Below are positions 29,120 through 57,903 of a stretch of DNA of 64,000 bases, piece after piece. Numbering within the stretch: the stretch's first letter is position 1; each line of letters starts with the position of its first letter. Where the stretch lies: the NCBI GenBank assembly GCA_017893485.1, contig CM030366.1, positions 202,301,173 to 202,365,172 of the forward strand, written 5' to 3'. The notes beneath the pieces are model-generated. The model ran no database searches. It was given only the letters and a program-made list of their open reading frames with translations, and was not told the origin of the DNA. The translations under genes were made by a program, and so were the position numbers. The stretch comes from Hemerocallis citrina (Eukaryota > Streptophyta > Magnoliopsida > Asparagales > Asphodelaceae).

Positions 29120-30512
29120 TGTTGGATCCTGTAGGCAAGACAACAAACACTAGAGGGGGGTGAATAGTGTTTAATAAAAACTGCGGAAATTTTTCTCGGT
29201 GCAGTCGACTGAGTTTTGGACCAGTCGACTGATAAGTCAAAAATAATTGAAAATAACAACTCTGTGCAGTCGACTGATGGATGAAACAGACGACTGAAAG
29301 CACAATGAAATTACAACTACAAACGGCACTGACCAGTCGACTGATGGTGCAATGAGTCGACTGTCCAGAATCTTTTTGCAGAATTAAAATAAACAAGAAT
29401 GAATGCAAACACAAGATAATCAATCACAGAGTACACAAGATATATCCTGGTTCGGTCCTCCCGACCTACATCCAGTCCCCAAGCAACCCACTTGAGATTT
29501 CCACTATTCTTGAAAAAATTACAAGAATACCCTACGGCGTTACGACAACAACCTTGTCTAACCCGTAGTCCTTTCTCTCAACCAGAGAAAGCAGACCCAC
29601 TCTACAACCAAGAGTGAAAAGACACCGACTCTACAACCAAGAGTCAAAAACACTCTCCAACCGAGAGCAAGAGTACAAGAATACTTTACAGTCAACCTAT
29701 AGCCTTGTTGGTGTATATGTGTTGATGCACGTGGCTAACAAAATAGGTCGACTTCTATACTCAGTCCAGAGCGAAATCAATGCTATACTGGACTGAATGT
29801 AGAGAACCAAAGTGTATGAACTTGAAAGCTTTGTTTCTCACAGAAAATCACTTAAAATGTTTTTCACAAGAATGCTCGAGTGTATGAAAATCATGTAGAT
29901 CTTTTCAGTGAGATCTGAAACTCTATTTAAAGAGTTTGATCTCCTGAACGTTGGGAAAAACAGTTACTCAACTGTCAACCAACGGATCTGAGCTTTTGAG
30001 TTTGAAAAAATTCGATTTTGAAAAACAGAAAACGGTCAAAAGCTCTCGAACAGTCGACTGGGTTGCCATATGAGTCGACTGATCAGAGTTTGAATAATTT
30101 TAAACAGTTTTGTACTATCAGTCGACTGGCAGAAGCTTAAGTCGACTGGTACTTAAAAGTTAAAATTCTTCAAACTGTTTTGACTTCTTTTTGGGGGTTT
30201 TTAAGAGACACACATTATGAAATTTTGAGTGTGTGTGTGTGTGTGACAAGGCTTTACATCAGACTAAGACTCAACAGAAACTAAAATACAATGTTTACAA
30301 GACACAACAATATAACACATTTGAGCTTGAAGTCTTGAGTCTTGAGTCTTGAATTGAGTCTTGATCCTTGTCTTGAAGTCTTCATCTGTTATCCTTTTGA
30401 GCTTGTTCATTTGTTCAGCTAGAATTGTCTTTGGTCTGTGCACTGCAATGTTAGTTGTATAACATAGACACATGTTGTACTATATTGTGATCATCAAAAT
30501 CAAGAATCAACA
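29120..30512 (-). repeat. SIRE 3' LTR (1.39 kb)
   Basis: Minus strand begins TGTTGATTCTTG and ends GGATCCAACA, with short inverted ends TGTTGA/TCAACA. A TATA-like TTTAAATAG lies near 29,934. It contains five CAGTCGACTG pairs spaced 20-21 bp, plus one single site, and a GT microsatellite. It differs from the other LTR at only a handful of positions seen by eye (GT repeat number, one G in a G run, two or three substitutions near 30,478). Confidence 0.92.
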
Positions 30513-30526
30513 TTCTCCCCCTTTTT
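30513..30526 (-). other. SIRE polypurine tract
   Basis: Minus strand AAAAAGGGGGAGAA directly precedes the 3' LTR. Confidence 0.85.
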
Positions 30527-31035
30527 GATGATGACAACATAATAGCTGATAAACAGATAATATACAAGTATAGTGATGAAATGCTCCCCCTTATAAAAAC
30601 ACAATATGCATACACAAAATAGATGTTATTATAAGGAATGTATATGCATACACAAAATAGATGTTATTATAAGGAATGTATCAGTCGACTTAACAATAGA
30701 TCAGGCGACTGAACAGACGAAAAACATAACAGATGCAGTAGTTAGCAGCAGTCGACTGTATCCCTTGGGGAAGTCGACTGACCAGAGATATTTTAATAAC
30801 CAGAACAATGTTACAATGTTAACAATTCAAAACAAAAATAACACATAACACAGATAGACAAAATGTAACTCAGATAGACAAAATGTGACTCAGATATTTC
30901 TCTCCCCCTTTGGAATCATCAAAAAGGCACAAAGTAACAAGCGTTTGCATTAAAGAGAAAACAATGATAAAGTCTAATACATAAAAACAAATGCATTAAA
31001 AAGAAGATTACATAATAAAAAGAAATAAAAAATCT
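30527..31035 (-). other. Untranslated region between ORF3 and 3' LTR
   Basis: Holds a 38-bp tandem duplication (TATGCATACACAAAATAGAT..., about 30,606-30,681), two CAGTCGACTG-type pairs (30,682/30,702 and 30,749/30,771) and a second purine-rich run AAAGGGGGAGAG near 30,905. No coding frame. Confidence 0.7.
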
Positions 31036-32112
31036 TCAATCTTCTTCATCGGAGTCTTCATCATCATCTTGAGAAGGAAGATGAAATTGAGAGGTGAAGA
31101 GATGAGTTAGGTTGTCTAGTTTGGAGTCGAGGGTATGGAGTTGGGTATCTACAGAGACTGAGTGATTCATTAGGTAGGAAACACAGTCATACAAGGTACG
31201 AGGGTCATCATAATTGGCTTGAAGAATAGGTGGATCATCAGATGTAGAAGGTTGAGAGGGTCTAGGTTTAGAAGTAGAACCTAAGGGAGCTTGGGAGAGT
31301 GGAGGAGACCTAGGGGGTGATCGAGTAGGAGCATCAAGGAGTTTCATACGTGCCAAACTAGCACGATCGAAACACTCATAACGAGTAACAACATTTGTCT
31401 CCGAATCTAGATCAACACCAAAAGCTATAAAGACTCTAGTAAGAAAACCTCCAAAAGGTAGAAAATGATAGTGGTCTTGATTAAGCTTAGAAAAAATAAG
31501 TTGACCCCAATTAACAGCAATTCTACCAAAAATTGCATATATAGCTTTTTGTAGTTCAATAGAATATTGGTCATAACTACCCTTTTTAGGAAGGATATTA
31601 TAGGCTAATATTCTACCTACAAGCTTAGCAATTGGTTTGATATTTTTGCTTGTCATTGGAGGGCCATGATTGGGTAGGAAAATTTTAGATAAAATAGAAG
31701 CATCATCTAAAAGAATTTCATCAAGAGGTAATCCTACATCATCAATACCTAACATCTCATTAATCCTAGTCGGTGTGAGTGTCATTTTCATATTTTTCAC
31801 AGACGACCGGATTAAGACATCCCCATTTGGTTTTTGCACAATTCTCATATTTGTGTAAAACAAATAAATGAGTTGGGGATAGTAATTAGGTTGGTTTGAT
31901 AATGAGAGAAAGTCATAAAGACTGCAATTTTGAAATAGTGGAATGAGATTAAAACGGTCTAGGTCATCAAAATTTACAAATCTTTCAGGAAAGATTGTAA
32001 TGGTGCAAAAAAGATACCAACGATCAATAAGATCGGGACTCAAGAGATATTGAGTGTAGTCTTGTGAAGAAGAACTACCCTCATGAGATCGTTTTGATCG
32101 TTTGGGTGCCAT
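31036..32112 (-). CDS. ORF3 of the SIRE element, 'putative plant transposon protein' type
   Basis: A 358-codon frame on the same strand, about 490 bp downstream of pol, in the place where SIRE elements have an extra, historically 'env-like', gene. Residues ~25-250 resemble the uncharacterised plant transposon protein domain found beside many plant retroelements (LIPLFQNCSLYDFLSLS, TPTRINEMLGIDDVGLPLDE, GRILAYNILPKKGSYDQYS, LPFGGFLTRVFIAFGVDL). A Pro/Ser-rich linker (about 255-300) follows, then a helical stretch and a very acidic tail (QDDDEDSDEED). The N-terminus is basic (MAPKRSKRSHEGSSS). I see no signal peptide, membrane segment or retroviral envelope feature, so an envelope role is not supported. 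Function unknown. A second, broken copy lies at 39,532-40,547. Confidence 0.8.
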   Translation of the reverse strand: MAPKRSKRSHEGSSSSQDYTQYLLSPDLIDRWYLFCTITIFPERFVNFDDLDRFNLIPLFQNCSLYDFLSLSNQPNYYPQLIYLFYTNMRIVQKPNGDVLIRSSVKNMKMTLTPTRINEMLGIDDVGLPLDEILLDDASILSKIFLPNHGPPMTSKNIKPIAKLVGRILAYNILPKKGSYDQYSIELQKAIYAIFGRIAVNWGQLIFSKLNQDHYHFLPFGGFLTRVFIAFGVDLDSETNVVTRYECFDRASLARMKLLDAPTRSPPRSPPLSQAPLGSTSKPRPSQPSTSDDPPILQANYDDPRTLYDCVSYLMNHSVSVDTQLHTLDSKLDNLTHLFTSQFHLPSQDDDEDSDEED

Positions 32113-32598
32113 GAGAAAAGAGTGGAAAGGGTTTTACCTAAGTAAGAGAGAGATTCGATCAGGTGCAAGCACAATCAGCACTGAGAAAGTAGATCACCTT
32201 CTTCTCCAAAAACTAGGGTTTTGAAATTGGGGGTAAAAGCTTGAAATCGGTAAGGGGTTAAAACGGCTGGTAAAGAGGGTTTTAACTGTGAGTGAGCGGC
32301 TGAGATCAAGGAGAGGTGAAATCGACGGTGAGGATTAAAGATCACGGGTGAAGAGATAAGTGATTTCCATCTCAAAAGACGTGATGAATAGTCGCTGAAG
32401 ATGATTTAGCTCGCGACAGTCGACTGGTAGGGAGATCAGTCGACTGAGTCGAGAAGAAAATAAACATTTTATGTCGACTAATCAGTCGACTGGTATAGGA
32501 ACCAGGCGACTGGTCAGACAAAAAAAATTGGTATGTTTTTTAAAAAGCCAGTACAATCGACTTACTCAAAAGTATAGTCGACTTAACAGTAACAATTT

Positions 32599-35500
32599 TC
32601 AGCAAATATCAATAAAATCACAAATTCCAAGTTCTCGTCTTAAATTAATGAAAGTATCTTCTTTAAGGGGCTTGGTAAATATATCTGCTACTTGTTTATC
32701 AGTAGAGATAAAGTCTAAAGATATATCTCCTTTTAAAACATGATCACGTAGAAAATAATGTCGAATATCAATATGTTTCGTACGTGAATGTTGAATCGGA
32801 TTTTTAGATAAATTAATTGCACTGGTATTATCACACATAATAGAGGGTTTCTCAAATGAAATACCATAATCTAATAAGGTTTGTTTCATCCATAAAATTT
32901 GTGCACAAGCCAAACTTGCAGCGATATACTCAGCTTCTGTAGTTGATAGGGATACGGAGTTTTGCTTTTTACTGCACCAAGATACTAGGGAATGTCCCAA
33001 AAAGTGACATGTTCCACTAGTACTCTTGCGATCAGTTTTGCTTCCAGCAAAATCGGCATCGCTATAAGACAAAAGTTGAAAATTATCGGTGCGTGGATAA
33101 AATAAACCATATTCAGATGTGCCTTTAATATATCTTAAAATTCGTTTCACTGCTTTTAAATGAGACTCTTTAGGACTAGATTGATATCTAGCACATAAAC
33201 ATACGCTGAACATAATATCTGGTCTACTTGCAGTAATATATAAGAGTGAACCAATCATACCTCGATAGAGTTTTTGATCAACACTCTTACCTAATAAGTC
33301 TTTGTCAAGAGTAGTAGTAGTAGCCATAGGTGTGGATTTACTACTAGTACTATCCATGTTAAAACGTTTGAGTAATTCCTTTGCATATTTGCCTTGATTG
33401 ATAAATATGCCATTTGAGGACTGTTTAATTTGAAGTCCAAGAAAATAATTGAGTTCACCCATGTGACTCATCTCAAATTCATTTTTCATGGTATTAGCAA
33501 ATTCTTGACATAGATTATTATTAGTAGAACAAAAAATTATATCATCAGCATATATTTGTATGATTAAGATATCATTCTTAACTCTTTTGACAAACAAAGT
33601 AGTGTCTACTTTACCTATTTCAAATCCTGTTTCTAAAAGAAAAGTTTTTAAACGATCATACCAAGCACGAGGTGCTTGTTTAAGACCGTATAAAGCCTTT
33701 TTCAATTTATAAACATGATCTGGAAATTGTTCATGTTCAAAACCTGGTGGTTGTTTAGCATAAACATTTTCCTTAATAAACCCATTAAGAAAAGCACTTT
33801 TCACATCCATTTGATAAAGTATAAAATTCATAAAACAAGCAAAAGATAATAAAATACGAATAGATTCTAGTCTAGCAACAGGAGCATATGTTTCATCAAA
33901 ATCTATACCTTCTTCTTGATTATATCCTTGAGCAACTAATCTAGCCTTGTTCCTTACAACTTGTCCTGATTCATCTAACTTATTTTTGAATACCCATTTG
34001 GTACCAATGATAGTCTGATCAGGAGGTCTAGGAACTAAATCCCATACATCATTCCTTATAAATTGGTTTAGTTCATCTTGCATGGCATTCATCCAATATT
34101 CATTCTCACAAGCTTCTTGTATATTTTTCGGTTCAAAATCCGACAAGAATGTTGTATGAGAGATCATATTAATATGTGAACGTGTCTGAATACCATGAGA
34201 GATGTCACCAATTATTAAGCCATGAGGATGATCTTTAACTTCAACAAATGACTTTGGTAAAGTTGAAGATATCATAATCGGATCAGTCGACTTGACTTGT
34301 TCTTCAGTCGACTGCTTTACGTCAGTCGACTGGTTGAGCTTATCAGTCGACTTATCAGACAGATTAGTTTGCTCTAAGGATTTAATCACATTATCTAAAG
34401 GTGATAAATCAGTTTCATCATCTTTATTTAAGGTTGATGAAGGTAAGGATTCATCGAATGTAACATGCATTGATTCATCAATAGTCATTGTAGACTTATT
34501 GAAAATTCTATATGCTTTACTTCTATTTGAGTATCCTAAAAAGATACTCTCATTAGATCTAGGATCAAATTTGTCTAAATTATCTTTTGTGTTTAGAATA
34601 AAACACTTGCAACCAAATGTCTTAAAGTAAGAGACTTTAGGAATTTTATTAAAAAATAACTCGTAACAAGTCTTCTTTAGTTTAGGTCTTAGAAGAATTA
34701 TATTTAAAACATAACAAGCTGTAGCAACAGCTTCAGCCCAAAAATACTTTGGTAGATTGCTTTCAACCAGCATAGTACGTGCGCATTCTTGCAAAGTCCT
34801 ATTTTTCCTTTCAACCACTCCATTTTGTGGTGAAGCTCTAGGAAATGCAAATGAATGTGTTATACCATTCTTGTTGCAATATTCTGTAAATGTTTCATTT
34901 TCAAATTCTCCACAATGATCACTTCTAATAGTGACTATTGTTAGAGATCTTTGATTTTGAACACGTTTACAAAAATATGCAAATTCCTCAAAAGCATCAT
35001 TTTTATGTTTTAAAAAGAATGTCCAGGTGAATCTTGAAAAATCATCTACTAAAACAAACACATATCTACTTTTATTTAAAGAAGCAACTCTAGTAGGGCC
35101 AAATAAATCCATATGAATTAATTCAAGTGGCCTACTAGTAGAGATTACGTCTTTTGTTTTAAAAGTGGATTTGATTTGTTTTCCTAGTTGACATGCATGA
35201 CATAACTTATCCTTTTTAAAAGATAGTTTTGGCAGTCCTTTAACTAGGTTATATTTAGATAATTTTGAGAGATTTTTCATGTTCACATGTTCAAATCTTC
35301 TATGCCATAACCAAGATTCATTGTTAGAGGCTATTAAACAAAAATCATTTGAAAGATCAATTGCATTCAAACACAATTCATAAATATTATTTTTACGAAA
35401 ACCTTGAAAAACAACATTTTGCATAGTAGAATTATAAATCAAGCATGCATCTTTTTCAAAAACTATTTTATACCCTTTATCACATAATTGACTAATGCTT

Positions 35501-35718
35501 AAAAGATTATGCTTTAAACCATTAACCAATAGCACATTTTCTATAATTGGGTTAGATATTTTACCGACCATGCCAATACCGATGACTTTGCCTTTGTTGT
35601 TATCTCCAAAGGTGACGGTTCCTCCATCTATACTTTGAATGGTGGATAGTAGGTTGGCATGCCCTGTCATGTGTTTTGAACAGCCGCTGTCTAATATCCA
35701 GCGTTCTTTCTTGGGTAC
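32599..35718 (-). CDS. pol: SIRE pol: protease, integrase, reverse transcriptase, RNase H
   Basis: About 1,040 codons open without a stop. The reading starts just inside [20 protein letters not shown], the aspartic protease active site (DSG). It continues with the zinc-binding HRRFEHVN...CHACQLG and the integrase core ([17 protein letters not shown] and NGVVERKNR supply D, D and E). Reverse transcriptase follows ([33 protein letters not shown], and catalytic IYADDIIF), then RNase H ([30 protein letters not shown]). Length and domain order are those of Ty1/copia. The C in SDHCGEF replaces a usual Gly. A linker between integrase and reverse transcriptase carries four GTCGAC motifs, read as repeated Lys/Gln-Ser-Thr. 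There is no in-frame ATG before the protease, and a stop precedes GTACCC at 35,718. Expression needs a join to gag by splicing or readthrough. Confidence 0.93.
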
Positions 35719-35903
35719 CTATAAAAAGTTTAAGGTAAATATGGTACCATTTTTATTGGGTCCAAAACACATTAGTTTGGGGGAAACCAAACCCATGAAG
35801 AGTTTGATCTTCCTCCATAAGCAAGAATATAATAAGTAGAATTACATACATTTAATATATATGAGTTAATATAAGCAATTCTATCATTCTGATTCAGACT
35901 GAC
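35719..35903 (-). other. Candidate gag-pol intron (185 nt, or 131 nt from 35,849)
   Basis: The minus strand ends TTTTTATAG before GTACCCAAG, a good splice acceptor. Upstream, CCA/GTCAGT (35,903) and AAT/GTATGT (35,849) are possible donors. Either donor joined to this acceptor keeps the gag frame and fuses it to the protease in phase 0, giving [17 protein letters not shown] in the first case. Without splicing, gag ends at 35,772 and several stops separate it from pol. This is a prediction only. Confidence 0.4.
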
Positions 35904-37589
35904 TGGAACCCATACTAATTTGTTCTGTCCAGTCGACTTATCAGTGTCCTTCAGTCGACTGTTGGTGTACATCAGTCGACTGGTAGATACACTAGGTCGA
36001 CTTATAAGAGGTTTTGATCTCATCGAATAAGATCCACTTTCTCTGGACAGGCGACTGGTTGTATGGTTCAGTCGACTTAACCGAATGTTAGTTTTGCTTT
36101 TATCACTGAAATTAACAACCTTTGGCTTTGCAAAGAAATCATACAACTTGTGTGTAACACTAGAAATAGATGCTGACTTATTTTTACTAGTGTTTACTAC
36201 AGGAGATTCTTTTACAGAAGATTTTTTAAAACCAAGTCCAAATTTTTGACTAGATGTAACTTGATGATGAAGCATATCATTTAAATTCTCTTTGCCTTTG
36301 TTAAACTTAGATACGTTCTTTGAAATCTCTTCATAATTCTTTTTGAGAGTTTCAAGATCAGTATCTAAACTTGCAATGCGAGAATTTAAGAATTTTACTT
36401 CCTTATCAAGGTTAAGATTTTCTTGATTAACTGTTTGATTCACTTTCTCAAGATTCTTAATTCTAATCTTTTCTTTCTTCAATTCTTGGAATATTTCATT
36501 AAAAGCATCAAGAAGATCTTCGGAATCATAATCATTACTTACATGCTCTTGTGCAGCCATGAAACAAACATTTGCCACTTCGTTATTTTCATCCATTTCT
36601 TCTTCGGAAGATGAATCACTATCATCCCATGTAGCTTGATAAGCCTTCTTGTTTTTGGCAAATTTGTTCTTTGGATATTTGTCCTTCTTGAAGTTGGATG
36701 ATTTTCCCTTGTTCTTTGCATTTTCTAAGGGACAATCCTTCTTCATGTGACCTATTTTATTGCACCTGAAACATGTAGGAGGGTCATTAGAATCTTTAAC
36801 TTTAGAATGAAACTTACCCTTCTTTAAGAACTTCTTGAATCTCCGAGTGAACATTGCTATTTCTTCTTCATCTTCTTCTTCATCTTCTGAATCTGTCATG
36901 GCTTTAAAAGCCAATGATTTCTTCTTTGCTTGGTGTGATTCTGTATCTTTCTTTCGATCTTCAAGTTGGACCTCATATGCCATGAGATTGCCAACAAGAT
37001 TCTCGAGAGTAAGTGTTGACAAGTCATTCGCTTCCTCTATTGCTGTGGTCTTCTTCTCCCATTCTGGAGTGAGTGCACGCAAGACTTTTCTGACCATCTC
37101 TGCTTGAGTATAAATCTTTCCAAGTGCCACTAGAGAGTTTGTGATGTCTGTGAATCTGGTAATCATCTCAGACACAGTCTCATTGTCCTTCATTCTGAAC
37201 ATCTCAAACCTGTGGACAAGAACAGAAATTTTAGACTCTTTTACTTTATTCGTTCCTTCATGTGTTACCTCGAGTGTATGCCAAATTTGATGTGCGGTTG
37301 TAGCATTTGATACACGGTTGAATTCTTCCTTTGTAAGTGCACAAAATAAGGCATTCATTGCTTTGGCATTGTTCATAGTCTGATTCTTTTCATCATCATT
37401 CCATTGTGCATATGGAATGGTAGGAGCAGTGTATTCCGTCTCTGTCATTTGCCATATCTCATAGTTGATTGATTGGAGATAGATTCGCATTCGGCACTTC
37501 CAATAATTGTAGTTCGTCCCATCAAATAGTGGTGGCCGTTGTGTAGATTGGCCTTCATGGTACTGATTTGTATTTGAAGTAGTTGCCAT
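35772..37589 (-). CDS. gag: SIRE gag (nucleocapsid polyprotein)
   Basis: About 605 codons from MATTSNTNQYHEGQSTQRPP, whose ATG lies 13 bases after the primer site. An upstream ATG inside the LTR gives 18 extra codons and is less likely. The N-terminus (PPLFDGTNYNYWKCRMRIYL) and the following helical region (SKISVLVHRFEMFRMKDNET, MVRKVLRALTPEW) are the copia gag/UBN2 region. A CCHC zinc knuckle, CFRCNKIGHMKKDC, lies near residue 270-285. An acidic stretch and a long coiled-coil-like segment (NLEKVNQTVNQENLNLDKEV, DTDLETLKKNYEEIS) follow. The C-terminal third is Ser/Arg-rich and encodes six GTCGAC motifs in different frames. Gag coats the RNA in virus-like particles. No stop before the end. Confidence 0.9.
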   Translation of the reverse strand: MATTSNTNQYHEGQSTQRPPLFDGTNYNYWKCRMRIYLQSINYEIWQMTETEYTAPTIPYAQWNDDEKNQTMNNAKAMNALFCALTKEEFNRVSNATTAHQIWHTLEVTHEGTNKVKESKISVLVHRFEMFRMKDNETVSEMITRFTDITNSLVALGKIYTQAEMVRKVLRALTPEWEKKTTAIEEANDLSTLTLENLVGNLMAYEVQLEDRKKDTESHQAKKKSLAFKAMTDSEDEEEDEEEIAMFTRRFKKFLKKGKFHSKVKDSNDPPTCFRCNKIGHMKKDCPLENAKNKGKSSNFKKDKYPKNKFAKNKKAYQATWDDSDSSSEEEMDENNEVANVCFMAAQEHVSNDYDSEDLLDAFNEIFQELKKEKIRIKNLEKVNQTVNQENLNLDKEVKFLNSRIASLDTDLETLKKNYEEISKNVSKFNKGKENLNDMLHHQVTSSQKFGLGFKKSSVKESPVVNTSKNKSASISSVTHKLYDFFAKPKVVNFSDKSKTNIRLSRLNHTTSRLSRESGSYSMRSKPLISRPSVSTSRLMYTNSRLKDTDKSTGQNKLVWVPVSLNQNDRIAYINSYILNVCNSTYYILAYGGRSNSSWVWFPPN

Positions 37590-37602
37590 AGCTTGTAACC
37601 TT

Positions 37603-37614
37603 GCTCTGATACCA
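37603..37614 (-). other. SIRE primer-binding site (initiator tRNA-Met type)
   Basis: Minus strand TGGTATCAGAGC, two bases from the 5' LTR. Confidence 0.92.
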
Positions 37615-37616
37615 AG

Positions 37617-39007
37617 TGTTGGATCCTGTAGGCAAGACAACAAACACTAGAGGGGGGGTGAATAGTGTTTAATAAAAACTGCGGAAATTTTTCTCGGTGC
37701 AGTCGACTGAGTTTTGGACCAGTCGACTGATAAGTCAAAAATAATTGAAAATAACAACTCTGTGCAGTCGACTGATGGATGAAACAGACGACTGAAAGCA
37801 CAATGAAATTACAACTACAAACGGCACTGACCAGTCGACTGATGGTGCAATGAGTCGACTGTCCAGAATCTTTTTGCAGAATTAAAATAAACAAGAATGA
37901 ATGCAAACACAAGATAATCAATCACAGAGTACACAAGATATATCCTGGTTCGGTCCTCCCGACCTACATCCAGTCCCCAAGCAACCCACTTGAGATTTCC
38001 ACTATTCTTGAAAAAATTACAAGAATACCCTACGGCGTTACGACAACAACCTTGTCTAACCCGTAGTCCTTTCTCTCAACCAGAGAAAGCAGACCCACTC
38101 TACAACCAAGAGTGAAAAGACACCGACTCTACAACCAAGAGTCAAAAACACTCTCCAACCGAGAGCAAGAGTACAAGAATACTTTACAGTCAACCTATAG
38201 CCTTGTTGGTGTATATGTGTTGATGCACGTGGCTAACAAAATAGGTCGACTTCTATACTCAGTCCAGAGCGAAATCAATGCTATACTGGACTGAATGTAG
38301 AGAACCAAAGTGTATGAACTTGAAAGCTTTGTTTCTCACAGAAAATCACTTAAAATGTTTTTCACAAGAATGCTCGAGTGTATGAAAATCATGTAGATCT
38401 TTTCAGTGAGATCTGAAACTCTATTTAAAGAGTTTGATCTCCTGAACGTTGGGAAAAACAGTTACTCAACTGTCAACCAACGGATCTGAGCTTTTGAGTT
38501 TGAAAAAATTCGATTTTGAAAAACAGAAAACGGTCAAAAGCTCTCGAACAGTCGACTGGGTTGCCATATGAGTCGACTGATCAGAGTTTGAATAATTTTA
38601 AACAGTTTTGTACTATCAGTCGACTGGCAGAAGCTTAAGTCGACTGGTACTTAAAAGTTAAAATTCTTCAAACTGTTTTGACTTCTTTTTGGGGGTTTTT
38701 AAGAGACACACATTATGAAATTTTGAGTGTGTGTGTGTGTGACAAGGCTTTACATCAGACTAAGACTCAACAGAAACTAAAATACAATGTTTACAAGACA
38801 CAACAATATAACACATTTGAGCTTGAAGTCTTGAGTCTTGAGTCTTGAATTGAGTCTTGATCCTTGTCTTGAAGTCTTCATCTGTTATCCTTTTGAGCTT
38901 GTTCATTTGTTCAGCTAGAATTGTCTTTGGTCTGTGCACTGCAATGTTAGTTGTATAACATAGACACATGTTGCACTATGTTGTGATCATCAAAATCAAG
39001 AATCAAC
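37617..39007 (-). repeat. SIRE 5' LTR of the complete unit (1.39 kb), shared with the tandem partner
   Basis: Near-identical to 29,120-30,512, with the same ends and the same GTCGAC pairs. For the partial copy to its right it is at the same time the 3' LTR. Confidence 0.92.
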
Positions 39008-39531
39008 ATTCTCCCCCTTTTTGATGATGACAACATAATAGCTGATAAACAGATAATATACAAGCATAGTGATGAAATGCTCCCCCTTATAAAAACACAA
39101 TATGCATACACAAAATAGATGTTATTATAAGGAATGTATATGCATACACAAAATAGATGTTATTATAAGGAATGTATCAGTCGACTTAACAATAGATCAG
39201 GCGACTGAACAGACGAAAAACATAACAGATGCAGTAGTTAGCAGCAGTCGACTGTATCCCTTGGGGAAGTCGACTGACCAGAGATATTTTAATAACCAGA
39301 ACAATGTTACAATGTTAACAATTCAAAACAAAAATAACACATAACACAGATAGACAAAATGTAACTCAGATAGACAAAATGTGACTCAGATATTTCTCTC
39401 CCCCTTTGGAATCATCAAAAAGGCACAAAGTAACAAGCGTTTGCATTAAAGAGAAAACAATGATAAAGTCTAATACATAAAAACAAATGCATTAAAAAGA
39501 AGATTACATAATAAAAAGAAATAAAAAATCT
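39008..39531 (-). other. Polypurine tract and ORF3-LTR spacer of the partial SIRE copy
   Basis: Copy of 30,513-31,035 with the same polypurine tract (39,008-39,021), 38-bp tandem duplication and GTCGAC pairs. Confidence 0.85.
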
Positions 39532-40547
39532 TCAATCTTCTTCATCGGAGTCTTCATCATCATCTTGAGAAGGAAGATAAAATTGAGAGGTGAAGAGATG
39601 AGTTAGGTTGTCTAGTTTGGAGTCGAGGGTATGGAGTTGGGTATCTACAGAGACTGAGTGATTCATTAGGTAGGAAACACAGTCATACAAGGTACGAGGG
39701 TCATCATAATTGGCTTGAAGAATAGGTGGATCATCAGATGTAGAAGGTTGAGAGGGTCTAGGTCTAGAAGTAGAACCTAAGGGAGCTTGGGAGAGTGGAG
39801 GAGACCTAGGGGGTGATCGAGTAGGAGCATCAAGGAGTTTCATACGTGCCAAACTAGCACGATCGAAACACTCATAACGAGTAACAACATTTGTCTCCGA
39901 ATCTAGATCAACACCAAAAGCTATAAAGACTCTAGTAAGAAAACCTCCAAAAGGTAGAAAATGATAGTGGTCTTGATTAAGCTTAGAAAAAATAAGTTGA
40001 CCCCAATTAACAGCAATTCTACCAAAAATTGCATATATAGCTTTTTGTAGTTCAATAGAATATTGGTCATAACTACCCTTTTTAGGAAGGATGTTATAGG
40101 CTAATATTCTACCTACAAGCTTAGCAATTGGTTTGATATTTTTGCTTGTCATTGGAGGGCCATGATTGGGTAGGAAAATTTTAGATAAAATAGAAGCATC
40201 ATCTAAAAGAATTTCATCAAGAGGTAATCCTACATCATCAATACCTAACATCTCATTAATCCTAGTCGGTGTGAGTGTCATTTTCATATTTTTCACAGAC
40301 GACTGGATTAAGACATCCCCATTTGGTTTTTGCACAATTCTCATATTTGTGTAAAACAAATAAATGAGTTGGGGATAGTAATTAGGTTGGTTTGATAATG
40401 AGAGAAAGTCATAAAGACTGCAATTTTGAAATAGTGGAATGAGATTAAAACGGTCTTGGTCATCAAAATTTACAAATCTTTCAGCGAAGATTGTAATGGT
40501 TCAAAAAAGATACCAACGATCAATAAGATCGGGACTCAAGAGATATT
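39532..40547 (-). pseudogene. Truncated second copy of SIRE ORF3
   Basis: Nearly identical to the ORF3 at 31,036-32,112, but the first ~20 codons are lost at the junction at 40,547. A TGC to TGA change near 40,501 stops the frame. The open part starts at a Met at 40,359 (about 275 codons). A few amino-acid changes (Arg/Lys, Arg/Gln, His/Tyr) separate the copies. Confidence 0.9.
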
Positions 40548-45637: not shown

Positions 45638-48481
45638 TGTAATACCCTGATTTTTCAAATACATGAAAATATTATTTATTTTTACATTTGGTATGCTTGT
45701 GTAGCATGTTGACTAATATTTCTCAACATGATGAAATAAGTGTATTGTTTTCTATAAAACATTTTCTTAAAGCCCAATGTTAATTTGCTTATTTTTCTTT
45801 TAAAATTATTTTGGCCCAACAAATTTTAGCCCATGAATTTAATTATATATTTTTTTTACAACTTGTATGTGTAGCATCTTTTCTTTTATTTTTCCGGGTT
45901 CTTGGTGTACAATTTATGTAGTGGGGTTTGTGTGTACACGTGCACTCCATGTACACGTGCACAAGGCACAAGTTTGGGCCGGATGGGAGAGTAGTGGAGA
46001 TGAGATGTGGGTAGTTTTTTTCTTAGGAGTGGGTAGTTTCTCAACTCCCGAATGAATCCTAGCTCTTGATCTCCAACTCCCTAATGCATCTTAACCCTCC
46101 ATCTCACTCTAATTTGTGTATAAATACCCCTCTCATTCCCTATCTTATTTTACACTAAAGTTATTATTGTAAGAGAGGCATTCTGTGAGTTTGTGTGTGG
46201 GAGCGTGCCTGTGGAAGCCAGGTAGCATTCTGAGGATTCGGTGTGGAACAAGGAGCAAGGAGGCGTTCACTATATTAAGGAGCTTTTGCGGGATTTCGTT
46301 ATTTCTTCATATAAGGTGGGTATTTTTCAGGACTTCTAATGTAGAGATTATACCATAATTATTATGATTGCTACCATGTTATAAAAAGTAAATTGGATGT
46401 ATTAGAAATTGCTTGAACATATTGTTAATAATGAGAACGGAAGTGTCGGTACAGTCGACTGTCACATGCACCAGTCGACTAGTACGAGACCGTTGATCTG
46501 TGATGTGGTGATAAACTGAATGCAAATAGACAAAATGGTGTGATTACTGAGTTGTAATTTTCCTATGACACATATGATGGAGGGAAGATAAATGGATGAA
46601 AAAGAACTAGCGATGATTAAACAAATTAAGAACTGTCGGAGCAGTCGACTGACACTGTGTTCAGCCGACTGGTGCTCCAATTTTAATTATGATTATTCGG
46701 AATGTCATGTAATGAGATGTTCTGTTGTGTTAAACCAGTATAATGACTTGGAAGTTATATCTTCATCATCGTAAGAAAGTTATAAGCAGTATGAATGCAT
46801 GTTTAAAGTATTTTTCTTCAAAGGAAAGAGTATATTAATAACTTGAAATTTTATGTTTGTGCTGTTCCTGAATAATCAGAGGCTCTGTGTTTATGAAATA
46901 TGAATATATGGGCATTGTAAATTGATATCATGATGCAAGAATATATAAAAGCCATTAGACAATCTCTTAATTTGAATTATGGAACTAATCAGTCGACTGA
47001 ATGCGCGTAGCAAGTCGACTGAACTGGACTTGGAATTGTGTTGTTGAGAATCCCAGAACAGATGACTGATGGATGAACAGTCGACTGTCATGTGGATGAC
47101 ACTATGAATATGAAAAGTTGCGGGACAGGCGACTGGTTGTGTACAGCAGTCGACTATCCCGAGCATTATGATGAACCTGTATTTGACTGTATGAGTCGAC
47201 TAGTGTACTTCCAAGTCGACTGTACAGAGTGAATTTTGAAATGCATGAATTTCATTTTATTTGCTGTTAGAAATTGTGAACTTTATGATCGAATTCTATG
47301 AACTCTTTTTGTAACTGTGTGGATTATGGATGGGAAGTGAGAATTAAATGAATATGAAAGGCTAAGATCATGATGAGAAAGTCTGTGAGACTCTAATTGA
47401 ATTATGAGCTGAAGTGCTCAATTGGAAGTTGTGAATTGTAAATTGAAACCGAGAGTAGCTAAGTCTCCCCCGGCAGCGAAATGAATGAAATGAAATGAGA
47501 ATTGAAAGACCAAGGTTGGTTATGTATTGAAATGAAATGATAAGTCCGGTTTGGTGGAGAGGCTAACTCTAAAGCTTGATTTATATTCATAATTCTAATA
47601 TTTAGTGCATAGTGAAGAGGTGATGAAGGTGGGAGAAAAATATGAGTATGAGAACTAGGATTTACGGTGCGGGTGTGTGAGCCGCAGAATGCATGCTTGA
47701 TGAGTCAAGACATGGCGCGGGCACAACTCAGTAATGATCGAACTTTAGTCACGCTTGTGGGATGTTTTGGTGACTGCAAGAGGATTGTGTTCAGGGAGGA
47801 GGCTGAATTGTCGCAGAATGCATGCTTGATGAGTCAAGACATGGCGCGAAATTCTACTCCAGGGGCCAGGATACATGCTTGTACTCATAGAATCATCTAA
47901 GATACTTACCGTAATTACAGAAGTAGAGTAAGTCATGGCGAGGGATTGAACCCTACAAAAATGAAGAACGACTAAGAGACTTGCCCTCGAACCTATGTAG
48001 TATGGGATGCATAGAATTCGAACAAGTGCGCATTAGTGTCATGTAAATTAAATAAATTGCATTAAGGATTAAGTGCACAATCACGACACGACATCATTAA
48101 GAGTTCCCTTTTGTTTTACATGCTTATATTGAACAAGTTTGTGATTTGTTAAGAAATGAGATTCATTATACTGTTTCTGGCATAGAGAGGATGGCCATGT
48201 ATAATTATCGTCGGTTGAATAAACTGACGTACCCACAGTTCTGTATGCAGGATGAATTACATGTAAAGAGGAATGGATGCATAAAGATCTTATCATGTTG
48301 TTAGTCATTTATGTAAATGTTGTATATATTTTGCTTCCGCTGTGTAAATGTAATTGTAATATGATGTAAACTCTGATGTAAGATGAAAAGTTTTAATTTC
48401 TTTGTAAAATTGTACTCAAAGAAAGTGAAAAGATCCTGTAGAACATCTCGAATTCAGTGATTTGGGATTCGGGGCGTTACA
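45638..48481 (+). mobile_element. Solo LTR, family A copy 2 (2.84 kb)
   Basis: Starts TGTAATACCCTG and ends CGGGGCGTTACA with target duplication ATTAT on both sides (45,633-45,637, 48,482-48,486). It contains six GTCGAC-type pairs (46,452-47,222) and a direct repeat of CGCAGAATGCATGCTTGATG (47,684 and 47,814). A TTCCGCTGT...AATTGTAAT end region is shared with copy 1. No coding frame. Confidence 0.88.
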
Positions 48482-48622: not shown

Positions 48623-48625
<3 letters not shown>

Positions 48626-48672: not shown

Positions 48673-48674
<2 letters not shown>

Positions 48675-48905
48675 AGCAGTCAACCTATTTTTCCTTTATA
48701 CCCGGTGGCCCCCACATGACTGCCACGTCAGCATGTGGCTGACGCAATAAGCAAAGAGCAGCTACATGCTCTGCTGTTCTTCACGTGTCCCCCCTCTCAA
48801 TCCACTATTCAATTCACAAATATTTACACATTTGCCATTCAACTCTCTTTATACATATATATATATATACTATTATATAGTTATCTCAAATTACGGGGTG
48901 TTACA
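48673..48905 (-). repeat. Fragment of a TRIM-type LTR
   Basis: The last ~60 bp (ATATATATACTATTATATAGTTATCTC... ending GGGGTGTTACA) are the same as the LTR end at 28,235-28,292. It directly abuts copia coding sequence at 48,906, so it interrupts the copia gag. Confidence 0.55.
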
Positions 48906-49931: not shown

Positions 49932-52900
49932 TGTGGCACCCCGAATTTTTAATATGATATCTCAGAAATACGTGGCACAATTTTCAGAATCTACCTCAAT
50001 GTAATAATAAACATAGCAAAACACAGAATTTTTTTCAACTTTTATTACAACATTTCTTTACAAAGCATAGCGGAAAATAAACACCTTAAATTACAATTTC
50101 TTTTTTTACCACACATTCTTTTACAATTTACATAAGCCACATTATCATTCTATCACATGTATCCAAATCCCAATCTATAGGTACCTACCTGTAAAATATG
50201 AGGCTAGAGATAACCCTAACTCCCCAAACTACGGGGTCAGCCATAACGGTGAGAGTGACATAAAAAAAAATACAATATGAATAAAGCATAAAGAATAAAG
50301 TCATAATCAACACATACCGATAGTAGTAACGAATGGAATATGAAATACCAATAAATAAAGCATGAAAACATCAAGTGAAACTAGACTAAGTGTCAAGTGT
50401 AGGAAAACAGAAAACAACATGTATAAAACCAAGTCGAGAAAATATGAATGCAGTATGATGACTCTCTAATGCATACTTGTCGGATTCTATGCATTCTATA
50501 GTACATAGGTCCGGTGTAAGCCCTTATCGTTCTCCACTTTGTAGGGTTAGATCCCACGTTATGCAACTATTCTACTACAATGACTACTACAAGATTTAGA
50601 AATTTTGCAAGTATCGGTTCTCACCCCTCACTCACGTAGATCATTCTGTGGCCTATTTCATCAATCGTCCCAGAATACTGGGGATTGCCTCACTCCGTAG
50701 GTCATCCTGGAACCCTCATTGCACAAACATCACATGAGCATCGCTCTCGTCCTTGGATTACTGGAGACCAATCATACTCACGTGGATCATTCTGTGGCCT
50801 ATTTCAGCCATCGTCCCGGAATACTGGGGATTATCTCACTCCTCGGATCATCATGGAGTCCATAACTCACATTTTCTCTCATTTCATCATATCAACATCT
50901 AATATCTGTCCTTATACTTATTAAGTTCATTTAATTAATTACAAATCTCCTATAGTTAGTGTACCCCACCAGGCTTAACTCAACTAATCAACAATCAAGA
51001 CCACAACTGACCAAACCATAAAATCTCAACTGCCGATGACTAGGGTCCCACTCAACCTTTAGAGACTCGCAACTCAACCATCAACACCAAATCTTTCATT
51101 AAAACTCTCAATTTCATTATCAATTCGCTCATATTAGGAAACTTCTAAAAAATCAACAAATCAAAAATCCATCCGAATACTCACAATTTTCAGAACTGAA
51201 ATGAGATATTAAATCCATTAAATAACTGAGTTCCATATTTTGAAGTTGTAGAAATCACAAAACATCAATTCTTTCGAAAACCGTATATATTTCTCTTTAT
51301 AAAGTCGTAGAAATACAATTTAAATTCTATTAAAATCCAAATGTAACTCTCTGTAAAATACTGTAATCTGTAGCAAAAACATCATCTAAAACAGTAGATT
51401 AATAAACCATAAGTTCGAAGAAATAATCATTCAAGAACAACGACAAAAACTCAAGAAAATAATCAGTCAAACAGCTGACAGTCAACTGTCAAAACCAGTT
51501 CAAAAGTGGGCGGTCGACTGTCAAGCCAAAATCCAAAAACCCAAGAATTTCCAGCTGACCGACATTTCATGTGCAATTTCGTGCGGTCGACTGTCAAGTT
51601 CGAAAATTGACAGCTTTAATATTCGTGCACATTTTTACTGATACTTCATTAAATCTTTATAAAATCATAAATTTGCAAAATAAAACTCCTGAGATGATCA
51701 AATACAACTTGTATAACAAACTGGAGTCTATAAAACAAATCAGCAATAGTACGAAAGAAATCAACCAACTCATGATTTCTATTAGGTTCTTAACAATCTC
51801 AAGTCATCTATATAGAATTCTAATCATCAATAGCATAGTTTTCATGAAAAGATTCAATCTTTATTCATCCATCCTTCAATAATTCATTATATCATCACTC
51901 AATCCCTTATCATGCTTTCTAATAGACAAATTATCACATACAACATGCATAGAACAATAAGAAAACAAATATATGTCACTCACCTTATTGAAGAATCAAC
52001 CGAAATAATAAAGATAATAAGAAAAATCCTTCCTTTCGCAAGAAAATCCAAGATCCTAGCTTCGAAACTCTAAGAAATCAATAATAAAGAAAACCCTTTG
52101 TTTAGTGTAGTGAAGAGACGGCTGCACTCTCTTTATATTAGGCCGGAAATTAGGTTTTAGGGTTTTAAGTAGGTTTTGTAAAATATCCCTTTTGAATATA
52201 TCTTTACATAAAAAGAGAGAGAACGTAGAACGCAAAGTGAAAGAAGAGAATAACCTAGGGTTTCCAATTTCGAGGGTAAGCATGAAGCGCAACCAACCTC
52301 CTGGTCGGGGGAGGGGAAGATCTGATGTGTCTGGACGCTGTTTTTACTTCTTTCTCGACCTTTTTGAGGCCTGGCTTGTGCTCTCCGTGGTGACCTCAAA
52401 TCTGTGGTTTTGTTACTATGATGTTCATTTTTGGCTAAATATCTTCGAGTAGCTTTTTATTTTCCTGCTTTGTTTTTAACTTTTGTGTTTCTATGTGGTT
52501 ACTATCAGTTGCTACTGTTGCTGATACCTCTACATTTTAGAGTATTTCTGTATTTATGTTCTTCTTTACTACTCTTCTGTTGCATTTTCTTTACCTATCC
52601 ATTCGTTCTTTTTTTTTTGCTGTGGGCATCTCTTGGTGGTGCTCGGTTGATTCTGGTTGGCTAGCTTTGGCCATGTTATTTGTTTCAGTTTGGTAGCTAC
52701 GGTATCTCTCGCTTGTGTTTTAATTTGCTTTGGTTACTACTGCTTTGTGTAGTTACTATCGGTTGCTACTGTTGCTGATTACTATACATTTTAGATTATT
52801 TCTGTATTACTGTTCATCTCTCCTACTCTTCAGTTGCATTTTCTATAGCCATCTATTCGTTCTATTTTTGGCTGTAGGCATCTCTTGGAGGTGCTCGGTT

Positions 52901-54046
52901 GACTCTGGTTGGCTAGCTTTAGCCTTGTTATTTATTTCAGTTTGGTTGCAGTGGTTTCTCTAGCTTGTGTTTCTGTTTGCTTTGGTTGCTACTACTTTGG
53001 TTTCTCGCCTCAGGTTTCAGCATCACAGCTCTTTTTGGGGTCGTCCCTGCCTTTGCACTGTTGTTTGGTAGGTTTGGTTGAGCTATCGCAGTTGGTGATG
53101 GTTGCTCTTGTTCGGTTCTGTTGTTGGGTTTGGTTTCTTCAGCTTGCATTGTTACCACTTGCTGCTCTTATTCTGATCTCTGATTTTGAACTTGTTTCAA
53201 CGACGTCTGGGAAGTGTGTCGAGTGCTATTCCCCTGTTCTCTGCCTCCAGCCGGTCATTGGCTTCTTTCCTGTTTGCTACCAGTCGCTTCGCTGGCTGTT
53301 TTTGGTCGTGTAATGCTTTCAATTGCCGCTTTTGTTTTTAGTTATTGTGTATATATGCGTTTATTTCTTCCAGTTTTACTCTGTGTAAAATTCAACTTTG
53401 TTTGTACATATTCGGTTATTTTTTATTATATTTGGGCTGGAGTCTTTCGACTCTATCCCCGTTATAAAAAAAAGGAATATATCTTTACATATATAAATCT
53501 TTAAACTAGGAAATTAGAATAACCAAGTCAATTAAGATTTAAAATCAAAAATAACCAACTGATATGGCCGGCACTGTTTTCAAACCCAGAAAAACGAATT
53601 TTGTAATTTTTGCCTCTAAGTGGCAATTTTGCAAAAAAAACTTTTCTTTAAGAAGTTTGCGAAATAAACCAAATCTATTAGCATAAAAAGTAAACTGTTT
53701 ACCTTTGATTTGGCTAGCCATCATGCTCAGCCTAGAAAATCGAAAATCTGAAGTTTTTACTCCAAGTGGTAATTTTGCACAAAAGCCCATCTTTTTGTAA
53801 TATTTGCAAATATACTAAATGAACATCAGAAAAATCCAGAAAATTTATAAATAATACCTACAAATAAATATTATATTTTTCCAAAATAATTTCTGACTTT
53901 GAACTTCTCAAAAATATGAACTTCTCAAAAATATATTTGCACGTGTAAAAAAACAATTTTCAGAAAAAGTTTATTACATCACCAAAAAATCATTTTAATT
54001 CATTTATTAATCTTAAAACATTATTTAAAAAATCTAGGGTGTTATA
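49932..54046 (-). mobile_element. Solo LTR, family A copy 3, inserted in copia integrase
   Basis: Minus strand begins TATAACACCCTAG (TGTAAC with changes) and ends CGGGGTGCCACA. Flanks GAAGC (49,927-49,931) and GGAGC (54,047-54,051) agree at four of five bases. Removing it restores the copia reading LAEA/FMTSVSPIN. Without the LINE-like insertion inside, it is ~2.83 kb, the same size as the other family A LTRs. It holds family A landmarks in reverse (GTCCCGGAATACTGGGGATT blocks at 50,640-50,850) and GTCGAC-type sites at 51,485-51,600. Confidence 0.8.
52211..53474 (+). mobile_element. LINE-like non-autonomous retroposon with 17-bp target duplication
   Basis: A 17-bp direct repeat GAATATATCTTTACATA flanks the insert (52,194-52,210 and 53,475-53,491), and the insert ends in TATAAAAAAAAG, so it was copied by target-primed reverse transcription. 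It starts with a purine-rich leader and an ATG (MKRNQPPGRGRGRSDVSG...), but no reverse transcriptase frame exists. The middle carries two ~255-bp tandem copies (around 52,495 and 52,750; GTTACTATC(A/G)GTTGCTACTG). The sense-strand open frames here are low-complexity readings of T/G-rich DNA. Confidence 0.8.
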
Positions 54047-54360
54047 GGAGCTTTCATGACCTCTGTTAGCCCTATTAACATTACTCCCTCATCTGCCCTA
54101 GTTGGTACGATGCCTTATGAGACTCTTTATCACTCACCTCCCGACTACAGTATACTCCGTACTTTTGGGTGCACCTGTTACGTTTTTCTCTCTCCTACTG
54201 AGCGCACAAAGCTCTCCACTCGTGCTGCTAAGTGCGTTCACCTAGGTCTTGGTTCTGAACATAAATGTTATCGTTGTTTTGATCCATCGGCGGGTCGTGC
54301 CCGTATTTCTCGACATGTATCATTTGTGGAAGACTCTCCTTGCTACCTGACCCCCCCCCC

Positions 54361-54397
<37 letters not shown>

Positions 54398-56259: not shown

Positions 56260-56303
56260 GGGAAAACTCACACTGTTTGATCCACCGTGAGTTTGAGAGG
56301 CGG

Positions 56304-56433
56304 TGTTAGATATTATAGTCCCACATTGGGTATTGTGCTAGTTTTATATATGGTTTACTCCAATATATAGAAGATATTGTACTCAGTTATTTATCAATTT
56401 ATTAATCAGTATTGTTTTCATCTCTCTAATACA
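56304..56433 (+). repeat. Probable short 3' LTR of the decayed copia element
   Basis: Follows the RNase H end and a purine-rich GTTTGAGAGGCGG (polypurine tract). Starts TGTTAGATATTATAGTCCC, includes a TATATATGG-like box and ends CTCTAATACA, giving inverted ends. The 5' LTR was not found, so the length is an inference. Confidence 0.55.
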
Positions 56434-57240
56434 AACGACAACTCCAACTCCAACTCTCCCATTATAATAGTAGAGATGTTTATTTTGAAAATGGTAAATT
56501 TCACTAAATCATTCCTAAGTTTCACCAATTTGTAGATAACTATATCTATAACTTTTTTTTTTGCATATGGGTATACTTTGTCCGCATTCTTGTTGCGGAT
56601 CGGTGTACTCCATCAAAATATGGTGTTATGTGCGATCACGTGACGAGTTCTGGGTATTTTTTAGGTGTTTTCTTCCTAATTAACCATAACTACTTAATTA
56701 GCTTATTTGCCTAATTAAATATGCTTATTATCCGTTTATGAAAAGTAATAAAAGCTAGAAAGGATTTTTTAAAAAAAAGTTGAAAAGGTATTTTCGAGAT
56801 ATTTATTTTAATAACTAAAAATAATTAAATTGTAAGCTATAAAGAGAGAGATGACAAACTCAGATAAAGTGAGGGGTATAACGGCCAATTTTTAAAAACA
56901 TTGACACGTTAAAGTATATGTTGACTCTTAGTTTGGTTTGTACAAAACGTGCTAACTTGTACTAATAAGTTTGAATTTAGTGTGTCAGATTTTCAGGATC
57001 AATTAACATCAAGAAAAGATCTAAAAGCGATTCATAAATATACAAACAAGGACAGTAATAAAGGAGGATTGCATACACAAGCAAAAGAGGAAGTTATTCA
57101 AAAGGAGTTCTCAACTAATTGGTCTCCATGCAATCTATCAAGACTGGTTTTTTAGTAATATTTTCGTGAGATTATTATTATATATGATTGATTAAAGATG
57201 GATTAATTTATGGTAAGAAAACAAAGTGGATTCGTATCAT
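56434..57240. other. No gene seen
   Basis: AT-rich flanking DNA with no exon, repeat end or conserved frame that I recognise. Confidence 0.4.
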
Positions 57241-57903
57241 ACAGCCAAGACCGGTCGACCGTACATAATGTCGGTCAACCGCATCACAGTCGACCGCAAC
57301 TTTAGTTGCTTAAGACAGCGGTCGGCCTTTCATCTCTCTAGCTATGCAGAGAGCTGAACGGTCGACCGCACGTTTTTGACGGTCGACCGCAACTTGAGCT
57401 ATATACTGTTTTGGAATGTATCGTTTCTATATTTGATTGATACACTTCCTCTTCTACTTAAGAGAACGAATTCACTGTGTCTTCTCTACCTAGTTCTTCT
57501 AAGAATTTTTTTTTGAAATAATCCTTCGATAATCATTGCGAGTGTGAGCATGAATTTGGTTGTATACTTCAGTCAAAATCTCAAAACGATCTTGAGTTTT
57601 CTTTTTTTTTTCTTTTCCATTTCAGTGAAATTGACGGGACTTGAATTAGAGGTCCTGTAGGTGTAATATGTCTCTCGGCCTGAATCCGAGAATCATTGTA
57701 CTAAGAGTTTTGAGTATAGTAGAACGCTTGTGGCGGAGAATTGCTACAAGTAGGTGATGTGGACGTAGACCTGGGGGTCGAACCACGTTATCGCTGTGTC
57801 ATCAGAGTTTGCGTTTTTTGTCTCTCTTTCATTTACTTTACTTTATTTCGTTAATTTTTAATTCCGCAAGATCACCTTATTCAAGTCCCCCCCCGGGGGG
57901 CGT
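57241..57903 (+). repeat. Fragment of a copia-type LTR with CGGTCGACCG motifs
   Basis: The stretch GAGAATTGCTACAAGTAGGT...GTGGACGTAGACC...GAACCACGTTATC resembles the 3' part of many copia LTRs, followed by TTATTCAAGTCCCCCCCC. The 5' part has five or six GTCGAC-type palindromes of the form CGGTCGACCG at 57,252-57,389, spaced 20 and 21 bp in two pairs. Ends, gag and pol are not visible. Confidence 0.5.

Follow-up and report, generated by a model that had tools for sequence, protein, structure and literature searches.

Why would retrotransposons of unrelated families carry the same short palindrome, repeatedly and in pairs of nearly constant spacing? The question is raised by a 64,000-nt stretch of the 3.78-Gb genome of Hemerocallis citrina (assembly GCA_017893485.1, contig CM030366.1, positions 202,301,173-202,365,172, forward strand), which we call the window. 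Its 29-58 kb part holds a minus-strand Sirevirus (SIRE), two solo long terminal repeats (LTRs) termed A1 and A2, a Del-type LTR termed B, and a probable Sirevirus-type LTR fragment near 57 kb. An earlier note on this DNA had described about 70 copies of a GTCGAC-centred box there, mostly in pairs, and had ascribed them to different LTR families. Here we define the box (CAGTCGACTG), its spacing, an extension on the outer side of each pair and the lineages that carry it. With a probability of roughly 0.6, we interpret the pair as a composite DNA cis-element that is probably occupied by one protein and presumably helps the elements that carry it.

Spacing of the paired boxes and their outward extension

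The boxes are confined to the retrotransposon-bearing interval, as had been claimed. Of 65 copies of GTCGAC in the window, 63 lie within 29,204-57,382, and the remaining two are at 7,509 and 58,410. When at most one mismatch is permitted, CAGTCGACTG is present 63 times, with no copy outside the element clusters, compared with a mean of 0.70 and a largest count of 3 among 100 dinucleotide shuffles of the window. These copies are distributed as 42 in 29,119-40,547 (a count covering SIRE, the second LTR copy and an extra partial copy), 7 in A1, 10 in A2, 3 in B and 1 at 57 kb.

The individual distances given in the earlier note, mostly 20-22 bp, were also correct. For analysis of the gaps we used boxes with up to two mismatches, dropped the second SIRE copy (58 of 73 boxes kept), and considered clusters of at least three boxes. 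Consecutive gaps of 19-22 bp accounted for 24 of 42, against a null mean of 4.3 and a maximum of 14 when positions were randomised within each cluster in 20,000 trials. A second spacing of 45-48 bp separates neighbouring pairs (9 gaps; null mean 1.7, P 1e-4) and is common to SIRE and the Del LTRs. The sequences between the two boxes of a pair had been called unconserved, and indeed the similarity of these inner spacers is no higher than that of shuffled sequences.

We extended the analysis to 20 further loci, 9,901-bp stretches on contig C1 that were chosen at exact pairs with 10 nucleotides between the boxes (N10 pairs); their spacing is therefore biased by the choice, and their flanks are unbiased. 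With the window and these loci combined and degenerate boxes counted, there are 153 distinct gaps of at most 130 bp, of which 99 fall at 19-22 bp, 26 at 44-50 bp and 15 at 54-59 bp. Gaps of 66-79 bp nearly disappear under this count, and what persists is a preference for two gap lengths that differ by about 11 bp. A helical periodicity of the inter-pair gaps (best period 10.7, P <1/2000) was rejected as partly an artefact, the period becoming 12.0 once degenerate boxes are counted.

Removal of sequences with at least 80% identity left 86 of the 121 pairs from the window and the new loci, spaced at 18 bp (1), 19 bp (3), 20 bp (42), 21 bp (32) and 22 bp (8). Likewise, when the 15 exact 20-bp pairs are subtracted from the 64 new pairs, the other 49 are spaced at 19 bp (3), 20 bp (15), 21 bp (26) and 22 bp (5). 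The deduplicated counts, in which spacings of 20-21 bp dominate, contradict the notion that the arrays are a functionless tandem-repeat expansion or one element copied many times. The arrays do have a rough 66-78-bp unit, and the right-hand distal spacers within a cluster are somewhat alike (mean score -0.92 versus -2.81 for shuffled sequences, standard deviation 2.79), but the inner and left-hand spacers exhibit no clear excess similarity, and we find this explanation scarcely credible.

A genome-wide peak in the distance between neighbouring boxes was the test that the earlier note had named, and the peak is sharp. There are 41,259 exact CAGTCGACTG pairs spaced at 20 bp and 24,525 spaced at 21 bp, as against 12,274 over the 22 spacings from 23 to 44 bp, or 558 per spacing; reversed-pattern controls for these three counts yielded 0, 0 and 1. 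Note that the genome-wide counts cover spacings of 20, 21 and 23-44 bp and, being counts of repeats, may be lower bounds.

Alignment of the flanks revealed that the pair extends outward. The window alignment comprised 25 pairs and left out the second SIRE copy, the overlapping pair 35952/35973, B and the box at 57,252. Among the 50 outer flanks, oriented away from the pair, position +3 is C in 30, +4 is A or C in 38, +5 is G in 34 and +6 is A in 27, and the inner flanks of the same 25 pairs display no such preference at +3 to +5. C at +3 together with G at +5 occurs in 26 of the 50 outer flanks versus 3.0% of positions drawn at random from those elements, and both preferences are evident in SIRE and in Del separately. 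The finding was replicated in the 64 new pairs, whose 128 outer flanks carry the extension in 62 cases and whose 128 inner flanks do so in 4. Genome-wide, the outer flanks of exact N10 pairs carry both bases in 10,986 + 11,183 = 22,169 of 82,518 cases (27%), where base composition predicts about 3.5%. The genome-wide share is below that of the deduplicated sample, and large families that lack the extension may be the reason.

Lineages, conservation and placement in coding sequence

We assigned the loci to lineages by using Pfam domains, att sites and LTR similarity. C at +3 with G at +5 was found in 13 of 30 outer flanks for SIRE, 7 of 14 for the Del LTRs of the window, 31 of 58 for chromovirus loci (L111, part of L112, L117, L118, L119, L122, L126, L128 and L130), 20 of 44 for other Ty3/gypsy elements (L113, L115, L116, L120, L121, L125 and L127), and 5 of 12 for copia elements not close to SIRE (L123 and L124), whose reverse transcriptase (RT) is 44-46% identical in the best stretches. 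Terminal-repeat retrotransposons in miniature (TRIM-type; L114 and L129) contributed 1 of 4, and the unassigned part of L112 contributed 5 of 10. The assignment is secured by boxes inside an open reading frame (ORF) for L113, L115, L120, L121, L125 and L123, and the chromovirus loci are supported by LTR similarity to A1 or A2; L116 (whose protease match falls slightly short of the Pfam threshold), L127 and L124 were assigned by proximity. The boxes of L119 and L128 lie in Del-like LTRs adjoining a copia, a situation in which assignment by the nearest ORF can mislead. The data thus support the claim that the same paired grammar is present in unrelated superfamilies, namely in a Ty1-type Sirevirus, Ty3 chromoviruses, other Ty3 elements and another copia. 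The L129 element (4376-5167 of its locus) is 792 bp long and has 282-bp LTRs that are 98.9% identical, a target-site duplication (TSD) ATAAT and a single box pair in each LTR. This LTR has a 78% relative in the window, at 28616-28800.

Box sequences are better kept than their surroundings. In four LTR comparisons (A1 with L130, L118 and L117, and A2 with L111), 295 of 310 box bases are identical, versus 1,284 of 1,657 neighbouring array bases (P 9e-16), although each box holds a mutable CpG.

Placement within coding sequence is also restricted. The SIRE boxes had been described as belonging to the LTR and untranslated regions (UTRs), which is correct for those in the LTR and UTRs, but some lie in gag and pol coding sequence, where they occupy two reading frames in gag and one in pol. 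We examined 14 ORFs that have Pfam domains; 6 of them hold boxes, 26 in all, and none of the 26 is inside a domain. Domains make up 45% of the length of the 14 ORFs, which gives a P value of 2.5e-7 that is inflated because one gypsy family accounts for 15 of the boxes and a related family for another 7. In the 15-box family the boxes are located in the RNaseH-integrase linker and upstream of the RT, in L113 at both ends of the gag ORF, and in the copia L123 in the linker between SH3 and RT domains. The SIRE pol pairs 34284/34305 and 34323/34344, which are not among the 26, sit in the same SH3-RT linker. No boxes were present in the other eight ORFs, including those of the chromoviruses. Because the boxes in ORFs fall outside domains, some elements seem to accept them wherever protein constraint allows.

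A probable DNA site and its possible occupant

The earlier note had offered an RNA signal as an alternative to protein binding, in which each pair would fold as a stem of 10 bp closing a loop of 10-11 nt, or the palindromes would promote RNA dimerisation; a further possibility is that they are a source of small RNAs. Pairing is possible between any two palindromes, and those of maize Sireviruses are hotspots of small-RNA mapping according to the cited parts of PMC5311732 and PMC10760457. However, changes in one box are mostly uncompensated in its partner (4 compensated and 27 broken in the window; 7 and 41 in the new loci), and the two outer flanks of a pair agree less than permuted ones (66 versus 75.0 in the window; 143 versus 184.6 in the new loci). 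The directional half-site has no significant strand bias (33 sense and 43 antisense, P 0.30), and Rfam gave no match at gathering scores in 29,000-58,600. The spacing also appears far tighter than a loop would require. Box compensation, flank agreement and strand bias led us to reject the hairpin or dimerisation signal in favour of a DNA site, and we consider a role in RNA very unlikely.

Our preferred reading is therefore of a protein-binding DNA site, and predicted protein binding, as the earlier note had proposed, fits the data best. The unit would be two half-sites facing apart, each consisting of CAGTCGACTG followed on its outer side by approximately NNC-M-GA, with palindrome centres 20-21 bp, or two helical turns, apart. 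Paired protein sites often lie two helical turns apart. Units would repeat at about 66-78 bp, the gap between pairs being about 46 bp or about 57 bp. Their most likely occupant would be a protein that binds specific DNA sequences, either as a dimer or at paired sites, and several units in tandem would recruit more of it. We presume that occupancy benefits the element because at least four LTR retrotransposon lineages carry units in LTRs, UTRs and non-domain coding sequence. Occupancy would most likely activate transcription or counteract silencing along the element, because unrelated elements keep the site and because in several of these elements it is distributed along the length and not at the promoter only. 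A single factor would serve all lineages. That it comes from the host was an assumption; it may be encoded by an element, and the PF20167 ORF of SIRE is a candidate by its position only. The box may resemble a WRKY W-box in which methyl-C replaces T, and the extension may resemble an ANT/AIL site.

A bolder version of this proposal would make the pair a community-wide address. Unrelated superfamilies would depend on one trans-acting protein, perhaps an anti-silencing or activating one that an element encodes (for example, in the PF20167 ORF) and others exploit, and they would carry its units throughout, coding sequence between domains included. We regard this version as speculative and rather doubtful.

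Several observations weigh against the preferred reading. The extension is missing in about half of the outer flanks of the sample and in nearly three quarters of those genome-wide, where, moreover, the pair counts weight large families. The copia sample is small (12 flanks), as is that of the TRIM-type elements, three of the four LTR comparisons use A1, and the boxes in ORFs are not independent of one another. Some of 20 hairpin tests point to base-pairing between the flanks that belong to one pair: Watson-Crick stems reach P 0.0016 in the Del LTRs and P 0.018 in all 26 pairs, and in A2 alone three of four flank-pairing measures give P 0.007-0.015 (the fourth, 0.059). This nominal hairpin signal was not repeated in pooled in-register flank tests of the window and the new loci, and we think that the flank complementarity of the Del LTRs largely reflects both sides matching one outward motif. 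Finally, in 35 stretches from bacterial and archaeal records (GTDB), gaps between paired CAGTCGACTG boxes likewise cluster at 20-24 bp (25 of 50) and at 39-42 bp (11 of 50), so this system is not set apart by spacing alone. Four of these 35 stretches are from Sporosarcina. In 71 IMG/VR stretches with the pattern there was no spacing peak at 20 bp, and no relative of the Sirevirus RT was found in IMG/VR.

The boxes could instead mark a cost to the element, as sites bound by a host repressor, as marks of silencing or as a by-product of some other constraint. The palindrome-rich LTR regions of maize Sireviruses attract small RNAs (PMC5311732, as cited in part), and the boxes contain CG and CHG cytosines. 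Recurrence in unrelated lineages, conservation of the boxes above their neighbours and placement outside domains suggest a benefit, and we judge a net cost unlikely.

Common descent deserves more weight, and we hold it to be possible, if clearly a minority view. One ancestral box array, most likely that of a Sirevirus, would have spread by recombination, template switching or nested insertion, so that its distribution would reflect descent while its function might be the same. The lineages agree in the details of both the outer extension and the two-step spacing, beyond what loose convergence needs, and in the cited parts of the literature RM boxes, the Sirevirus palindromes considered below, are reported for Sireviruses only. 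Alignments between SIRE and Del LTRs nevertheless run through the box arrays and are weak in the remainder, the unit spacers of SIRE and Del align no better than shuffled ones, and one transferred array cannot explain all of the boxes in ORFs of different gypsy and copia proteins.

Elements of the window and known systems

Table 1. Box-bearing elements of the window and their features; positions count from the first letter of the window.
Feature	Position	Strand	Details
SIRE 3' LTR	29120..30512	-	five box pairs; 99.6% identity with 5' LTR
Two box pairs between SIRE env-like ORF and 3' LTR	30682..30780	.	30682/30702, 30749/30771
SIRE env-like ORF, 358 aa	31039..32112	-	PF20167 'Transposase_32'
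Three box pairs between SIRE pol and env-like ORF	32417..32584	.	third, 32554/32575, has two mismatches per box
SIRE pol ORF	32602..35718	-	Pol_BBD, gag_pre-integrs, rve, SH3, RVT_2
SIRE gag ORF	35775..37589	-	five boxes at 35930-36078, C-terminal to zinc knuckle
SIRE 5' LTR	37617..39008	-	five box pairs, same as 3' LTR
A1, solo LTR of chromovirus (Del/Tekay, Ty3/gypsy)	40921..43606	+	TGTAGAACCC...GGGGCGCTACA, TSD CCACA
A1 box pairs	42081/42101, 42156/42176, 42222/42242, 42300/42320
A2, second chromovirus-type solo LTR	45638..48481	+	TGTAATACCC...GGGGCGTTACA, TSD ATTAT
A2 box pairs	46452/46472, 46642/46662, 46990/47012, 47059/47078, 47126/47147, 47193/47213
B, third Del-type LTR	50001..54046	-	TATAACACCC...; boxes 51479, 51511, 51584, not at pair spacing
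Probable Sirevirus-type LTR fragment, 57 kb	57252..57389	+	boxes CGGTCGACCG/CAGTCGACCG; pair 57359/57380

The SIRE pol order of protease, integrase and RT (RVT_2) is that of Ty1/copia. The polypurine tract AGGGGGAG is present in three copies upstream of each SIRE LTR, and its terminal octamer starts at 30522, 10 bp from the 3' LTR at 30512; several copies of this tract near the 3' LTR are a published Sirevirus feature (PMC2829016, as cited in part). The position of the env-like ORF, between pol and the 3' LTR, fits the Sirevirus envelope-like gene. The predicted protein starts with MAPKRSKR, has an acidic C-terminal tail and no transmembrane-like stretch (the largest 19-residue hydropathy mean is 1.51), and seems unlike an envelope. 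A protein search queried with it returned no match, and its fold model was too poor to use (mean predicted local distance difference test score 37). A second, partial copy of this ORF and the 3' UTR lies at 39009-40547, upstream of the 5' LTR, and the repeat 29,119-32,051/37,616-40,547 is 99.5% identical across its whole length; the partial copy looks like a truncated tandem element with one LTR in common. Box clusters are nearly evenly spaced through the SIRE internal region (29278-38593; midpoint gaps of 1776, 1686, 1818 and 1770 bp).

The earlier note had treated A1 and A2 as two copies of one family; these Del/Tekay-type LTRs have no nucleotide similarity to each other except short box-centred stretches. 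We assign A1 to the chromoviruses because its full length (positions 1-2686) aligns at 86% with the L130 LTR, which starts 208 bp downstream of an ORF for a polyprotein containing RT, integrase and a chromodomain, and because its ends are like published Del att sites. A link to a chromodomain polyprotein was established for A1 only; the assignment of A2 is based on att sites, the TSD and partial similarity. B, which interrupts a copia, is without the U5 signature and a TSD; it was assigned to Del from its ends and from stretches similar to A1 (68% over 310 bp; 63% over 503 bp) and to A2 (75% over 142 bp). By eye, B contains an insert resembling a long interspersed nuclear element at about 52228-53478, with an A-rich end and a 17-bp flanking repeat. 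In the Del study of Cruz et al. (2014; PMC4029996, as cited in part), the commonest U3 att site is TGTAACACCC, which A1 matches at 8 of 10 positions and A2 and B at 9 of 10; the type A U5 att site (GGG at -8 to -10) is present in A1 and A2. That study reports CpG islands in Del LTRs, with none in the Del cluster that holds all eudicot elements, and its main text does not contain the term 'palindrom'.

The distances in the 57-kb fragment, 20 and 21 bp, are as the earlier note had given them, and the box at 57252 has a partner, CGGTCAACCG, 20 bp on. The fragment had been called a copia LTR; its poly-C tract and a box identical to the RM of a Vitis Sirevirus suggest that it is Sirevirus-type. Two tandem arrays lie outside the box-bearing interval. 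The first, at 60650-62310, has five copies of an approximately 340-bp unit (61-91% identity to the reference copy) and adjoins an ORF with a FAR1 domain at 62304. The other, at 26813-27695, has a 254-bp unit (98-99% identity) and is near an ORF with a histone domain (25353-25784).

The nearest described motif is the Sirevirus RM box. The earlier note knew of no precedent, yet palindromic RM boxes in LTRs and upstream of env were published in 2010 (Bousios et al., PMC2829016; statements here refer to the cited parts of that paper), including the RM of a Vitis Sirevirus, CGGTCGACCG, which is identical to three 57-kb boxes and two bases from CAGTCGACTG. Like RM boxes, the boxes described here are short palindromes that recur many times within the LTR and upstream of an env-like gene, and the first SIRE LTR cluster begins 366 bp into the LTR, within the published range of 200-400 bp. 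The CGG-CCG core of RM boxes is retained in the three 57-kb boxes (CGG...CCG), in contrast to the SIRE and most Del boxes (CAG...CTG); Tnd-1 is a published exception to this core. RM boxes were called Sirevirus-specific and absent from classic copia, with gypsy unmentioned, whereas the present boxes also occur in Ty3 chromoviruses, other gypsy elements, the copia L123 and the TRIM-type L129, as well as in ORFs, near the 3' end of an LTR and downstream of env. The cited parts mention neither fixed pairing nor an outer extension, and among the literature matches listed we found no description of either, of occurrence in Ty3 elements or of boxes in ORFs outside domains. The paired grammar beyond Sireviruses, the outward extension CAGTCGACTG-NNC-N-GA and the placement in ORFs thus appear to be new.

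Regulatory motifs of LTR retrotransposons are usually viewed as private to a family. A site of fixed geometry in both superfamilies and in TRIM-type elements, at tens of thousands of copies, would imply one factor acting on much of the mobile DNA of this genome. No single factor could be named for all RM boxes (PMC2829016, cited parts), and the 2010 question of their purpose becomes that of which protein binds CAGTCGACTG-NNCMGA pairs. The present result supplies the exact probe, spacing and mutants, and a case for telling convergence from transfer between retrotransposon families.

Two other systems offer precedents. In maize, Sirevirus palindromes form clusters in the cis-region of the LTR that are discussed as hotspots of secondary structure and small RNAs (Bousios et al. 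2016, via PMC5311732 and PMC10760457, cited in part). One of them, CACCGGACNNNGTCCGGTG, is also the commonest motif in the structured regions of Helitrons (PMC10760457), a precedent for sharing between classes, but with a different and longer motif. VANC proteins are anti-silencing proteins encoded by the VANDAL transposons of Arabidopsis; the VANC21 motif is YAGTATTAY, and VANC6 also causes hypomethylation of AT9TSD1, which is not related to VANDAL (PMC5735166, cited in part). Like the boxes, the VANC motif is short and repeated along the element; it lies in non-coding parts and is bound by a sequence-specific protein. Unlike VANC targets, the present site is a spaced palindrome pair, known from its sequence alone and common to LTR retrotransposon superfamilies. 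Nevertheless, we think that VANC targets are the nearest working model, by analogy, for how paired boxes may activate or protect the elements that carry them.

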